Source: Microbispora catharanthi
GTDB taxonomy: Bacteria; Actinomycetota; Actinomycetes; Streptosporangiales; Streptosporangiaceae
DNA: 64,000 bases
Reading direction: 5' to 3'
Assembly (NCBI RefSeq): GCF_006334915.2
Contig: NZ_VDMA02000021.1
Span: 62,001-126,000 of the forward strand
In this document: positions 33,173-36,726 of the stretch, piece by piece
Layout: the number at the start of each line of letters is the position of its first letter
How positions within the stretch are numbered: the stretch's first letter is position 1
Made by a program: the position numbers and the translations under genes
The notes under the pieces: model-generated
The model's database searches: none
What the model was told of the DNA's origin: nothing
What the model saw: only the letters and a program-made list of their open reading frames with translations

Positions 33173-33339
33173 CAGCACCAACGTATGCCCAGCGGTGACG
33201 TTCCATGCCCTCTTCGTGGCGGAGCGGCACCCCGCGAGAGCCGGCAGAGGAGGCGGGAACGTTTTACGGCCGACCGCTTTTTCCCTTCTGCGGAATTCAG
33301 TGTTGACTCGCACAGTTATCGCCCAGTAATCGTCGTCAC

Positions 33340-34467
33340 GTGCGACTGCCCCGCGTGAAATTCGAGCACCGGCCTCACCGATACGAGGACGGCACCATTC
33401 GCATCGGCGGCGAGATTTACGGGATCGCCGCCGAAATCGCGGACCCGTACGGCTGGGCGTGGACGGCCCTCACACTGATGGACGGCACCCGCTCTCTCGA
33501 CGAGATCGCCGAGCGGCTGCGTCTGGCCCATCCGGAGCTGCCGGACCCCCCGTCGATCGTCGAGCAACTGGCCGCCACCCGATACGTGGAGGACGCCGCG
33601 GCGGTGCCGCCCGCCGGGCTGAGCGAGCGCGAGCTCGACCGCTACAGCAGGAATCACGCGTTCTTCCGCACGGTCGACGTCGTGCCGCGCGGCCACGGCT
33701 GGGAGACCCAGCTCCGGCTGAAGTCCGCGCGGGTCGTGGTGCTCGGCCTGGGCGGCACGGGCTGCCACGCGGCCTGGGCGCTCGCCGCCGTCGGCGTCGG
33801 CGCGATCCACTGCGTGGATCCCGACCTGGTCGAGCTGTCCAACCTCAACCGCCAGGTGCTCTACGGCGAGGACGACGTCGGGCGCCCGAAGGCGGAGGCG
33901 GCAGTCGCCCGGCTGCGGACCGTCAACTCCGACATCTCCGTCACGGGCGAACGCCGCCACATCGGCAGCAGGGGCGAACTGGACGACCTGATCGCGGGCT
34001 ACGACGCGCTCGCCCTCTGCGCGGACCGGCCCACCGGGCACGGCATCCGGGTGTGGGCCAACCGCGCCTGCGCCGCCGCGAACATCCCCTGGGCGGGTGG
34101 CGGATACAACGGGCCGCTCGTCACCGTGGGGTGCTTCGCGCCAGGAGCGGGCGCCTGCTACGAGTGCCTGAGCAGCGGCGAGGAGGCGCGGCGCCGCCCC
34201 GGCACGCCCGTGCACCTCGGCGGGCCCGGCGTGATCGCCACCTCGGCGGGCGTGTCCGGCCAGCTCGTCGCCCACGCGCTGCTTGGGCTGCTGACCGGGG
34301 TGCCCGTGCCGCCGGTCGGCACCATCCAGGGGGTCAACCTGATCGCCGGGGACCACCACGTGTGGGTCCGGCATCCGCCTCGCCCCGGCTGTCCGGTATG
34401 CGGGACCCGGGCCGGCGGATCGGAGCACAATTCAATGCGACGAATGACCGAAATCGACGCCGGCTGA
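33340..34467 (+). CDS. E1/ThiF-like adenylating enzyme with PqqD-like N-terminus
   Basis: Likely activates a carboxyl group, probably the C-terminus of the 47-residue peptide encoded next, as an acyl-adenylate. The 375-residue protein has a PqqD/RRE-like N-terminus (about 20-90: IRIGGEIYGIAAEI, LMDGTRSLDEIAERL). A full E1 core follows: ATP loop GLGGTG (136-141), acidic strand end VDPD (159-162), SNLNRQ with the Arg finger (167-172), Lys194, and Asp229 in LCADRP. Zinc ligands are C283-x2-C286 and C361-x2-C364. No ThiS- or MoeB-type partner is nearby. The GTG has no ribosome site; TTGACT at 33303 and TAATCG at 33327 would allow a leaderless message. Relatives include MccB and ocin-ThiF proteins. 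Confidence 0.9.
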   Translation: MRLPRVKFEHRPHRYEDGTIRIGGEIYGIAAEIADPYGWAWTALTLMDGTRSLDEIAERLRLAHPELPDPPSIVEQLAATRYVEDAAAVPPAGLSERELDRYSRNHAFFRTVDVVPRGHGWETQLRLKSARVVVLGLGGTGCHAAWALAAVGVGAIHCVDPDLVELSNLNRQVLYGEDDVGRPKAEAAVARLRTVNSDISVTGERRHIGSRGELDDLIAGYDALALCADRPTGHGIRVWANRACAAANIPWAGGGYNGPLVTVGCFAPGAGACYECLSSGEEARRRPGTPVHLGGPGVIATSAGVSGQLVAHALLGLLTGVPVPPVGTIQGVNLIAGDHHVWVRHPPRPGCPVCGTRAGGSEHNSMRRMTEIDAG

Positions 34468-34507
34468 ATGAACAAAAGAAAACCTTGACTGTCTCCGGTC
34501 AACGGAC

Positions 34508-34534
34508 GAACCTAGAACAGGTTCTCGCGAGAAC
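34508..34534 (+). promoter_or_regulatory. Overlapping dyads upstream of the precursor gene
   Basis: Two inverted repeats share bases: GAACC-TAGAACA-GGTTC (34508-34524) and the perfect palindrome GTTCTCGCGAGAAC (34521-34534). They cannot form as RNA hairpins at the same time. A third, weaker repeat TTGAC/GTCAA surrounds 34485-34502. The palindrome ends 31 bases before the precursor start, so it could be an operator or a switch in the leader RNA. Confidence 0.5.
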
Positions 34535-34565
34535 ATCCATGTCCCCTCCCCTCCAAAGGAATCGG

Positions 34566-34709
34566 ATGAACACGAGGAACCGGATGAACACGAACGAGCA
34601 CGAGACCGAGCCCGCCGACGAGGCCGTCGTGCCAGTGAAGACGAAGATCACCATCCGGCTGCTCGACAAGATCGAGACCACGACCAGCAGCAACAGCGTC
34701 GGCAACTGA
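34566..34709 (+). CDS. Putative RiPP precursor peptide, C-terminal Gly-Asn
   Basis: A 47-residue peptide. The first half is polar and Asn/Glu-rich (MNTRNRMNTNEHETEPADE). The middle reads VVPVKTKITIRLLDKIE, a leader-like amphipathic stretch, and the end is TTTSSNSVGN. AAAGGA five bases before the ATG at 34566 makes this the best start; ATG 34584 also has GAGGAA upstream, and ATG 34539 would add nine residues. It lies 98 bases after the E1-like gene and before DUF6879 and M50 genes. The terminal Asn recalls microcin C precursors, whose last Asn is adenylated by MccB; that chemistry here is an inference. There is no cysteine, so lanthionine or thiazole formation from Cys is excluded. Confidence 0.7.
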   Translation: MNTRNRMNTNEHETEPADEAVVPVKTKITIRLLDKIETTTSSNSVGN

Positions 34710-34815
34710 CGAAGCGCCGGTCGCGGCGCGCGGGGGTGCCCCAGGGGTGACGCAGGGCCGCCGCCCGCACGCCGCGGCCGGCCAGAGCCAGGAGCCGGAA
34801 CCCAGGGAGGGAAGG

Positions 34816-35487
34816 GTGGCGAACGCCGGCACCGTCTTCGACGACGTACGAGAGGCCGAGGCGCGGGTCCTGTCCGCCGACGCCTACCAGGCCGAGTTCA
34901 CCGAGGAGTTCGAGCGGGCCCCCGAAGGGGCGTGGAAGCTCGAGCGCGCCCAGGAGTTCTTCGAACCCGACGTGGCGAGCTGGCGGGCGATGATGGCCGG
35001 CGACTGGGACGGGTCGCTCGCCCTGCTGGAGGAACTGCGGGAGTTCCTGGTCGGCTACTACCGGACCCGGCCCACGGCCCGCCGGGTCCGCATCGTGGAG
35101 ACGCCGCTCACCCCCTATCTCCAGTGGGAGCTGCACGTCCTGGCCGTACGGGCGGCGGCGGGCGAGCAGCCCCGGGTGCTGCACGCGGACGCCGTGCGGG
35201 AGCTGGAGCACCCCGCGCCGCTGCCCGAGATCGTCGTGCTCGGCCCCGCGCTGCTCTACGAGGTGCGGTACGACGAGATCGGCGCACACGTGGGCGCCCG
35301 GCGGATCACCGATCCCGCCCTCGTCGGTCGCTGCCTGGCCGCGATCAAGGAACTCCACGGCCGGGGAGAGGACGTGCGGGCGTACGTCGAGAGGGAGGTC
35401 GCCCCGCTGCCGCCGCCCGTGATCTCCGAGCGGACGCGCGACCTCCTGCCCGGCTACTCGCACCACACCGGGACCTTCCGCCCCTGA
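34816..35487 (+). CDS. DUF6879-type protein in the peptide cluster
   Basis: A 223-residue soluble protein. It carries the pattern seen in the actinobacterial DUF6879 group: ERAQEFFEPDVASWRAMMAGDWDGSL, then RRVRIVETPLTPYLQWELHVL and VLGPALLYEVRYDEIGAHVG. In other genomes such proteins often sit beside helix-turn-helix regulators; here the gene lies between the precursor and the protease. The role is unknown: regulation, immunity or chaperoning of the peptide are all open. GGAGG five bases before the GTG at 34816 supports this start over a GTG at 34747. Confidence 0.75.
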   Translation: MANAGTVFDDVREAEARVLSADAYQAEFTEEFERAPEGAWKLERAQEFFEPDVASWRAMMAGDWDGSLALLEELREFLVGYYRTRPTARRVRIVETPLTPYLQWELHVLAVRAAAGEQPRVLHADAVRELEHPAPLPEIVVLGPALLYEVRYDEIGAHVGARRITDPALVGRCLAAIKELHGRGEDVRAYVEREVAPLPPPVISERTRDLLPGYSHHTGTFRP

Positions 35488-35508
35488 CTCCGCGTCTGGA
35501 GGCCCACG

Positions 35509-36726
35509 TTGGGAGAGGCGAGCGTGGTCCGGCTGCGCGACCTCGCGTTCCGGCAGGACGGCTCCCAGTGGATCGTCGGCCGCCCGGACGGGGACGCGTT
35601 CGTCGCCGTGCCGTATGAGGGGATGCGGGCCATCAGGCTGCTGTCGGCGGGCGCCACGGTCGAGGAGACGGAACGGCGGCTGCGTGCCGAGACCGGCGCC
35701 GATCTCGACGTCCGCGGCTTCGTCCGCGCCCTGGGCGAGCTGGGTTTCCTGGACGAGCCCGGCGGGACGGCCGCCCCCGCCGCGCCGCCGACCTTTCCGC
35801 GGCTGCGCCCCCGGCACGTACGGTGGACGCTGCACCCGCTGGTCCACCTGCTGGTCGCCGGCCTGATCGCCGCCGGGATCGCGACGGCGGTCACGCGGTG
35901 GGAGACGCTGCCGGGCTGGCGCGACCTGCTGTGGAGCGAGCGCGGCACGCTCGTGCTCGCGTCGCAGATCGCCGTCGGCTGGATGCTGGTCTTCCTGCAC
36001 GAGATGGCCCACCTGTCGACCGCCAGGGCCGCCGGGGTGCCGGGCAGGATCCGGCTCGGCACCCGGCTGCAGTTCCTGGCCGTCCAGACCGAGGTGTCCG
36101 GCGTGTGGCTGGCCGCGCGGCGCGTCCGACTGACGGTCTACCTCGCCGGGATGGCGACGGACGCGGCGGCCTGTTCGGCCGCGCTCCTCCTGACCGCCGT
36201 CCTGGGGCGCCATCCCGCGCTGTCGCTGGTCGCGCTGACCTCGCTCGGCATGCTGGCCACGCAGTTCCTCGTGTTCATGCGCACCGACGTCTACTTCCTG
36301 CTGCAGGACCTGAGCGGGTGCCGCAACATGTACGGCGACGCCGCCGCCTACGCCCGCCACCTGGCGCTGCGGCTGCTGCGCCGTCCCTCCCGCGACCCGC
36401 TCGCCGGGCTGCCGCAGCGGGAGCGCCGCGCCCTCAGGGCGTACGCGGTGCTGCTGGTCGCGGGCACCGCGGCCTGCCTTGGGGTGGCGTTCGCGGTGAC
36501 GGCGCCCGCGACGCTGACGCTGCTGTGCAGGGCGGTAGGCGCGCTGGTCGCCCCCGCCGGCCCGCTCGCCGAACTGGACGCCGTGGCGGTGCTGCTGTCC
36601 GCGGCCGCGTTCCAGGTGCTCTGGGCGCGGGCGTGGTGGCGCAGGCACGGCCCGCGCGTACGGCGCGCCCTGTGCCTCAGACCGCGCCCGAGAACGGAAC
36701 GAGCCGCCGATCAGGACTGCGCATAG
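35509..36726 (+). CDS. PqqD-M50 membrane metalloprotease
   Basis: A 405-residue membrane protein of the site-2-protease-like M50 type found with peptide-maturation genes. Residues about 20-85 form a PqqD-like winged domain (VAVPYEGMRAIRLLSAGATV, VRGFVRALGELGFLDEP) that may bind the precursor leader. Five or more membrane segments follow. The zinc motif HEMAH is at residues 164-168, and MRTDVYFLLQDLSGCRNMYG supplies the expected later Asp. It could remove the leader or export/sense the product. GGAGG six bases before the TTG at 35509 fixes the start. The 3' end overlaps the convergent epimerase gene by 16 bases. Confidence 0.88.
   Translation: MGEASVVRLRDLAFRQDGSQWIVGRPDGDAFVAVPYEGMRAIRLLSAGATVEETERRLRAETGADLDVRGFVRALGELGFLDEPGGTAAPAAPPTFPRLRPRHVRWTLHPLVHLLVAGLIAAGIATAVTRWETLPGWRDLLWSERGTLVLASQIAVGWMLVFLHEMAHLSTARAAGVPGRIRLGTRLQFLAVQTEVSGVWLAARRVRLTVYLAGMATDAAACSAALLLTAVLGRHPALSLVALTSLGMLATQFLVFMRTDVYFLLQDLSGCRNMYGDAAAYARHLALRLLRRPSRDPLAGLPQRERRALRAYAVLLVAGTAACLGVAFAVTAPATLTLLCRAVGALVAPAGPLAELDAVAVLLSAAAFQVLWARAWWRRHGPRVRRALCLRPRPRTERAADQDCA

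Follow-up and report, generated by a model that had tools for sequence, protein, structure and literature searches.

An E1-centred ribosomal peptide family of rare actinomycetes, with a proposed small ring formed by the enzyme at the end of each peptide

In the literature consulted here, the ThiF-like enzymes described for the biosynthesis of ribosomally synthesized and post-translationally modified peptides (RiPPs) come from enterobacteria, a myxobacterium, Bacillus, streptococci and enterococci. MccB, EnfB and IndF target the C-terminal end of the peptide (PMC12150305, PMC12250964, PMC7157772), and PaaA and GrcB use Glu side chains (PMC12250964). Here, we analysed a locus in a 64,000-nucleotide stretch of Microbispora catharanthi DNA (contig NZ_VDMA02000021.1, positions 62,001 to 126,000; the window), which is part of a 9.25-Mb genome. 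An earlier note on the window had proposed a RiPP-type system of four genes in a row on one strand, encoding an E1 enzyme, a 47-residue peptide, a DUF6879 protein and an M50 protease. The four open reading frames (ORFs) are present on the plus strand (33340-36726), and the comparison with relatives upheld a RiPP-type system, in which an enzyme combining a RiPP recognition element (RRE) with a ThiF domain stands with an M50 partner and a conserved family of cognate peptides. The E1 clusters are one RiPP family, centred on the window's family of rare actinomycetes, and the system is a new variant among ThiF-like RiPPs. Comparison of the relatives points to the formation of a small ring at the end of each peptide by this enzyme. 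The features of the locus were as follows.

33303 to 33330, plus strand: promoter-like element TTGACT ... AGTAAT directly 5' of the E1 start (by-eye comparison of 60 upstream bases in the window and 20 relatives)
33340 to 34467, plus strand: E1/ThiF-like adenylyltransferase with an N-terminal RRE-like domain, 375 residues (ORF, Pfam, alignment)
34566, plus strand: in-frame ATG farther upstream of the peptide start, giving 47 residues (ORF)
34584 to 34709 (coding 34584-34706), plus strand: precursor peptide, probably 41 residues (start common to relatives)
34647 to 34682, plus strand: conserved leader box ITIRLLDKIETT (12-residue box near E1, in 88/97 non-redundant loci)
34683 to 34706, plus strand: variable tail and presumed core TSSNSVGN (tail statistics)
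34689 to 34691, plus strand: Ser at position −6 from the C-terminus, proposed ring nucleophile (Ser/Cys at −6 in the window's clade)
Asn41 of the precursor: its carboxylate is the proposed activated end
34816 to 35487 (longer frame from 34747), plus strand: DUF6879 protein of a divergent subfamily, predicted phospholipase-D-like fold without the HKD motif
35509 to 36726, plus strand: M50-like membrane metalloprotease with HExxH (residues 164-168), D260...D267 and an N-terminal RRE-like β3α3 domain

The E1 is most similar to MccB in its ThiF-like adenylation domain, for which MccB is the closest match in the Protein Data Bank (PDB), and MccB, too, has a short peptide as its substrate and targets the C-terminal end (PMC12150305, PMC7157772). 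The two systems differ in that the C-terminal Asn is not conserved here, and in the precursor, the leader box and the M50 and DUF6879 partners. With PaaA the E1 shares an RRE-like N-terminal domain followed by a ThiF domain, and the precursors share a leader motif with spaced hydrophobic residues and Arg (PMC12250964), but the Glu-Glu-Asn core was found in none of 74 distinct precursors (box plus tail). EnfB (enterofaecin) and IndF (indolylamide) are also RRE-ThiF enzymes, in which the C-terminal carboxylate is activated for macrocyclisation, and the EnfA leader motif (V/I)RKA can be set beside the (I/V)R(R/K)L of many members here (PMC12250964). They come, however, from Enterococcus and Streptococcus and employ a backbone-amide or Trp-indole nucleophile with hydrophobic cores, whereas the cores described here are Ser-Gly-Asn-rich with Ser/Cys at −6. 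GrcB resembles the proposed reaction in its ThiF-like thiolactone formation on a RiPP precursor (PMC12250964), but joins a Glu side chain to a C-terminal Cys and works with radical SAM partners. The combination of genes had been said not to match a described class, and no description of it was found in the literature searched, which was mostly open-access.

The precursor family was defined with a 12-position leader profile built from 47 boxes, of which two seed boxes match no locus and the other 45 do; the box statistics were taken from the loci, not from the seeds. In the first search (147 loci, after which the MoeZ-like L004/L007 were left out), the profile found a same-strand precursor near E1 in 128 loci, and the opposite-strand control returned three matches, all themselves divergent precursors, and no other. 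After removal of E1s at ≥95% identity, 97 non-redundant loci remained, and a precursor with the leader box accompanied E1 in 88 of them, three on the opposite strand, a recurrence beyond what chance would give. No precursor was found in the other nine, namely five solo Microbispora E1 genes, Microbispora rosea L008, L128, L135 and L140. The box consensus was [I/L]x[I/V]R-x-L-[D/E]-[K/R]-x-E-T-T, followed by a variable tail of 6-13 residues; among the 74 distinct precursors, Leu and a position 4 Arg/Lys were each kept in 74 and Glu in 71. A candidate peptide at L140 (score 12.2) is counted in the 128/147 and in the 74 distinct precursors and is excluded from per-locus counts, association tests, tail shuffles and tail parsimony counts. 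Because the profile reads the leader box only, the tail statistics are not circular. NCBIfam held no model for the peptides or the M50 proteins tried. Since the relatives begin at the second Met, the window peptide is probably 41 residues long and not the 47 first assigned to it.

The window E1 matched Pfam ThiF (PF00899, E-value 3.5e-47), and its match to PaaA-like_N (E-value 5.7e-4) was below the cut-off. Its adenylation site is intact (GLGGTG, D162, R171, Q172, K184, D229). When the outlier rows L135 and L140 were excluded from the column counts, the ATP-site residues G136/138/139/141, D162, R171, Q172, K184 and D229 were conserved at ≥97% in the homologue set, and the CxxC zinc pairs C273/C276 and C351/C354 at ≥99% (97 homologues and the window); the complete site and the two pairs read from the window alone hold across the family. 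The nearest solved structures by sequence were MccB (E-value 5.8e-35) and PaaA (E-value 7.3e-33), and the profile match to PaaA, which is aligned from residue 4, points to an N-terminal RRE. The E1 N-termini matched PqqD in 11/19 and PaaA-like_N in 9/19 cases, all weakly, and PqqD was matched by 2/11 M50 proteins. Profile comparison gave a weak relation between the E1 and M50 RREs (probability 10.8%, E-value 0.003).

The E1 tree was divided into clade A (the window's), clade B with REGG-type tails, and a loose clade C with mostly Cys tails, to which the plasmid loci L148-L150 were assigned without the tree. The tails after ETT were rich in Ser, Gly and Asn and Lys-free in 71/74 distinct precursors. 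A small C-terminal residue was present in 68/74 (N 31, G 18, S 9, A 7, T 3, other 6), and the ends seen among relatives were N, G, S, A, T, Q, R, M and E. Counting the first precursor per locus, C-terminal Asn occurred in 40/88 loci (window included) and Gly-Asn in 28/88. As this end is not conserved while E1 is, the chemistry on a C-terminal Asn put forward in the earlier note is refuted as a general rule, and the Asn was rejected as the universal target. A different constraint was found in clade A, where Ser/Cys stood at −6 in 57/62 loci and 35/39 distinct tails, compared with at most 22/39 in 20,000 within-tail shuffles. The shuffles ignore kinship, which the tree counts address by parsimony only; on the E1 tree, at least 12 changes in tail length stand against four in the Ser/Cys state of −6, and the −6 residue itself changes six times, the fewest among the tail positions counted. 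Cys occupies −6 in TTYCGNSNS (L035) and GDLKCGNSNS (L084), which lie in separate parts of the tree, and an exchange of Ser and Cys at exactly this position, twice, is as expected of a nucleophile. A later-fetched set comprised 20 loci, 19 with a precursor and one (L185) without; there, Ser was at −6 in all three precursors beside a clade-A-like E1 (54-60% identity, off tree), which represent two distinct tails, one close to a known tail.

In the mechanism that we favour, the N-terminal RRE of E1 would grip the leader box (IxIRxLDKxETT), and E1 would use ATP to adenylate the precursor's C-terminal carboxylate. The side chain of Ser(−6), or Cys in some relatives, would then attack to give a six-residue macrolactone or thiolactone with release of AMP and a mass change of −18 Da; the ring of the window peptide would be Ser-Asn-Ser-Val-Gly-Asn. 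The M50 membrane protease would afterwards cleave off the leader, with the cut possibly at the E-T-T triad or close to it, or help product release, and DUF6879, encoded next to its own precursor, would bind the precursor or the product. We assign this whole RiPP explanation, with C-terminal adenylation, ring closure at −6 and the M50 and DUF6879 roles, a probability of about 0.5. Four of its elements are results of the computation: E1 has a cognate peptide family, its adenylation site is intact, Ser/Cys is constrained to −6 in clade A, and DUF6879 lacks the HKD motif. Activation of the precursor C-terminus by E1 is likely; it was proposed because this end is where MccB, EnfB and IndF work, and the C-terminal mode is favoured because Ser/Cys is anchored to the C-terminus in clade A. 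For ring closure on Ser/Cys(−6) itself, the chances appear evenly balanced.

Several observations weigh against the favoured mechanism. Exceptions to the −6 rule are four of the 39 distinct tails in clade A (GLNQSEA in two Planobispora loci, QNKAVSR, TLCMSEA and RMSWESG, the last two with Cys/Ser at −5), and likewise three of the four ECT precursors of L179 (off tree). Clade B has Arg five residues after the ETT Glu (Glu+5) and a C-terminal Gly, each in 11/11 distinct tails, and no Ser/Cys partner, so this clade must do something else; the later-fetched clade B tails follow this pattern mostly, not always. M50 presence was associated with ETT (Fisher p 1.2e-4), but the link was not significant on the E1 tree (9 independent pairs, median p 0.25), and M50 as the reader of the triad is retained as a suggestion. 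Finally, the carboxylate that is activated could be that of the ETT Glu, the mode described for PaaA and GrcB, and a hexapeptide released with Ser/Cys(−6) as its first residue could also account for the conservation at −6.

The first of these readings, a PaaA/GrcB-like reaction in which the ETT Glu side chain would be adenylated and attacked by a downstream Ser or Cys, or by the neighbouring Thr or a backbone amide, survives best among the alternatives and is nevertheless unlikely. It gains from the retention of this Glu in 71/74 distinct precursors, from the use of Glu side chains as targets by PaaA and GrcB (PMC12250964), and from the Glu+5 residue, which is Arg throughout the distinct clade B tails and Ser/Cys in 13/18 distinct clade C tails. 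In clade A, however, positions counted from Glu are poorly kept (Ser/Cys in 41% at Glu+5 versus 90% at −6), and three distinct precursors (L089, L100, L118) have Gly or Gln in place of Glu while none of the 13 ATP-site and zinc residues checked is lost from their E1. That Ser/Cys is anchored to the C-terminus speaks against the ETT Glu as the clade-A ring partner.

A linear or head-to-tail product, in which the protease would leave Ser/Cys(−6) as the N-terminus and E1 would amidate or cyclise the released hexapeptide, has only a small chance of being correct. It accounts equally well for the constant six-residue C-terminal unit, and EnfB can also amidate with outside amines (PMC12250964). Many loci covered only about 4 kb, and M50 or DUF6879 was called absent only if the sequence reached far enough, which for M50 was the case in 84/88 loci. 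The M50 gene was absent from the stretch covered in 27 of these 84, 26 of them in clade A, yet 23 of the 26 keep Ser/Cys(−6); another protease could serve such loci. An MccB-like conversion of the C-terminal Asn into a peptidyl-nucleotide phosphoramidate is improbable: the E1 catalytic domain is closest to MccB in the PDB and the GNSN-ending tails (part of clade A) are close to the microcin C peptide, but fewer than half of the loci end in Asn. A bacterial ubiquitin-like or cyclic-oligonucleotide-based antiphage signalling system (CBASS)-type E1 defence module instead of a RiPP is very improbable and the CBASS-type E1 was rejected, as 29 PADLOC E1-E2 models match the Rossmann segment (best E-value 8e-14) but among the matches listed (25 models, 426-778 residues long) only 51-111 residues align, DUF6879 and M50 gave no PADLOC model at E≤0.01, and E1 comes with a family of small peptides that carry a leader box.

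Turning to the partners in the favoured mechanism, the Pfam M50 match of the window protein was weak (E-value 0.03, below the cut-off), and H164-E165-x-x-H168 and D260/Y262/F263/Q266/D267 were invariant among 11 aligned sequences including the window. Its N-terminus was predicted as β-β-β-α-α-α with modest confidence (predicted local distance difference test of ~58 over the first 30 residues). Removal of the leader, or export or release of the product, is a reasonably probable role for this protein. The window DUF6879 protein belongs to PF21806 (E-value 2e-33), a family without a stated function, and no mention of DUF6879 was found in the literature searched. Its fold is predicted to be phospholipase-D-like, and the catalytic HxKx4D (HKD) motif was found in 0/20 aligned members; for this reason a tailoring enzyme is less likely, and a binding or sensor protein more likely. 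That it binds the precursor or the product, as a chaperone, immunity protein or sensor, is a tentative assignment. Ser/Cys was at −6 in 33/33 DUF6879-bearing loci; a tie between DUF6879 and the GN tail was not accepted, as the same tails occur in 20/55 loci without a DUF6879 match and the tree pairs were too few to prove dependence. Outside E1 clusters (L158-L165), DUF6879 was accompanied, by eye, by a small conserved ORF (MRLxFLG...CPTLYxTDRGT) in 6/8 and by a helix-turn-helix (HTH) regulator in 7/8 loci, and DUF6879, small ORF and HTH form a common actinobacterial module.

Upstream of E1, the TTGAC(T/C)...TAA-like element ends approximately 10 bases 5' of the start codon; by eye, it is common to the close Microbispora loci and not kept in distant ones. 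A consensus promoter scanner reported none at its threshold 5' of E1. The position of the element next to the start codon suggests that the E1 message is leaderless. The good ribosome sites described for the four genes are thus partly revised: none was seen by eye 5' of E1, and GGAGGG precedes position 34816, where the DUF6879 frame probably starts.

The closest named relatives of the window E1 in a scan of genome contigs, which yielded 38 E1 loci, were Microbispora records. In overlapping genome samples, an E1 match (E≤1e-60) was found in 88/297 genomes of the window's family, 87/297 of the order (one outside the family) and 12/394 of the class (three outside the family); with a broader profile, 2/396 genomes of the phylum matched, one being the window's own. 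Four plasmid-collection records also matched: three labelled as plasmids of Streptomyces, Actinacidiphila and Nocardia, in each of which a precursor could be recognised, and an 11.9-Mb Nonomuraea record. A solo E1 paralogue is kept across Microbispora (G000:C44:210127-211227, i.e. L003/L006, and L036, L037, L038, L044 and L045), with no precursor, DUF6879 or M50 found nearby; L037 and L045 retain intact ATP-site and zinc residues, in L036 Gly takes the place of D229, and the paralogue may act in trans. In M. rosea L008, the E1 is 95% identical to that of the window and precursor, DUF6879 and M50 are missing downstream (9126 onward), which looks like a deletion from the peptide start to the M50 end. 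A second cluster of the window's genome (L005, G000:C65:135444-139830) has the order E1, precursor AFSQGNST, M50, DUF6879, second precursor VCSNSTGN and second DUF6879. Two or three precursors with differing Cys-containing cores occur in each of L110, L113, L115, L116 and L148, one of these clusters on a Streptomyces plasmid, and four tandem precursors with ECT in place of ETT, one with the repeat LDKLDKLDKLECT, in another family of the order (L179:3327-3731, minus strand). In Planobispora L016 and L017, a glycosyltransferase-like frame (by eye) lies directly 3' of E1 and the precursor ends in NQSEA, which breaks the −6 rule. Ten loci with SNSxGN-type tails (L094, L099, L102, L104-L107, L041-L043) have a transporter-like gene upstream of E1 (of the major facilitator superfamily by eye), a possible exporter.

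Agr-type autoinducing peptides carry a small C-terminal lactone or thiolactone ring in which Ser/Cys keeps a constant spacing to the C-terminus, and the membrane protease AgrB makes this ring without an ATP-using E1. The peptides described here show a constant spacing in clade A only (−6 in 35/39 distinct tails), and if the proposed mechanism is right they would share the small ring as well. They might then represent an actinobacterial class of ribosomal macrolactone or thiolactone hexapeptides closed by E1 instead of an AgrB-type protease, serving as cell-to-cell signals with DUF6879 as a dedicated binding partner or sensor; this is a speculative reading and rather unlikely, alongside which it is noted that DUF6879 elsewhere often stands beside HTH regulators. 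The finding provides DUF6879 with a predicted fold and a genomic context. It also reveals a large family of clusters in rare actinomycetes, with 68 distinct natural tails and an E1 match in 88/297 genomes sampled from the window's family, in which the natural Ser/Cys swaps at −6 could serve as built-in controls, the enzyme clades differ in their cores, and a ring on Ser/Cys(−6) is a testable prediction.

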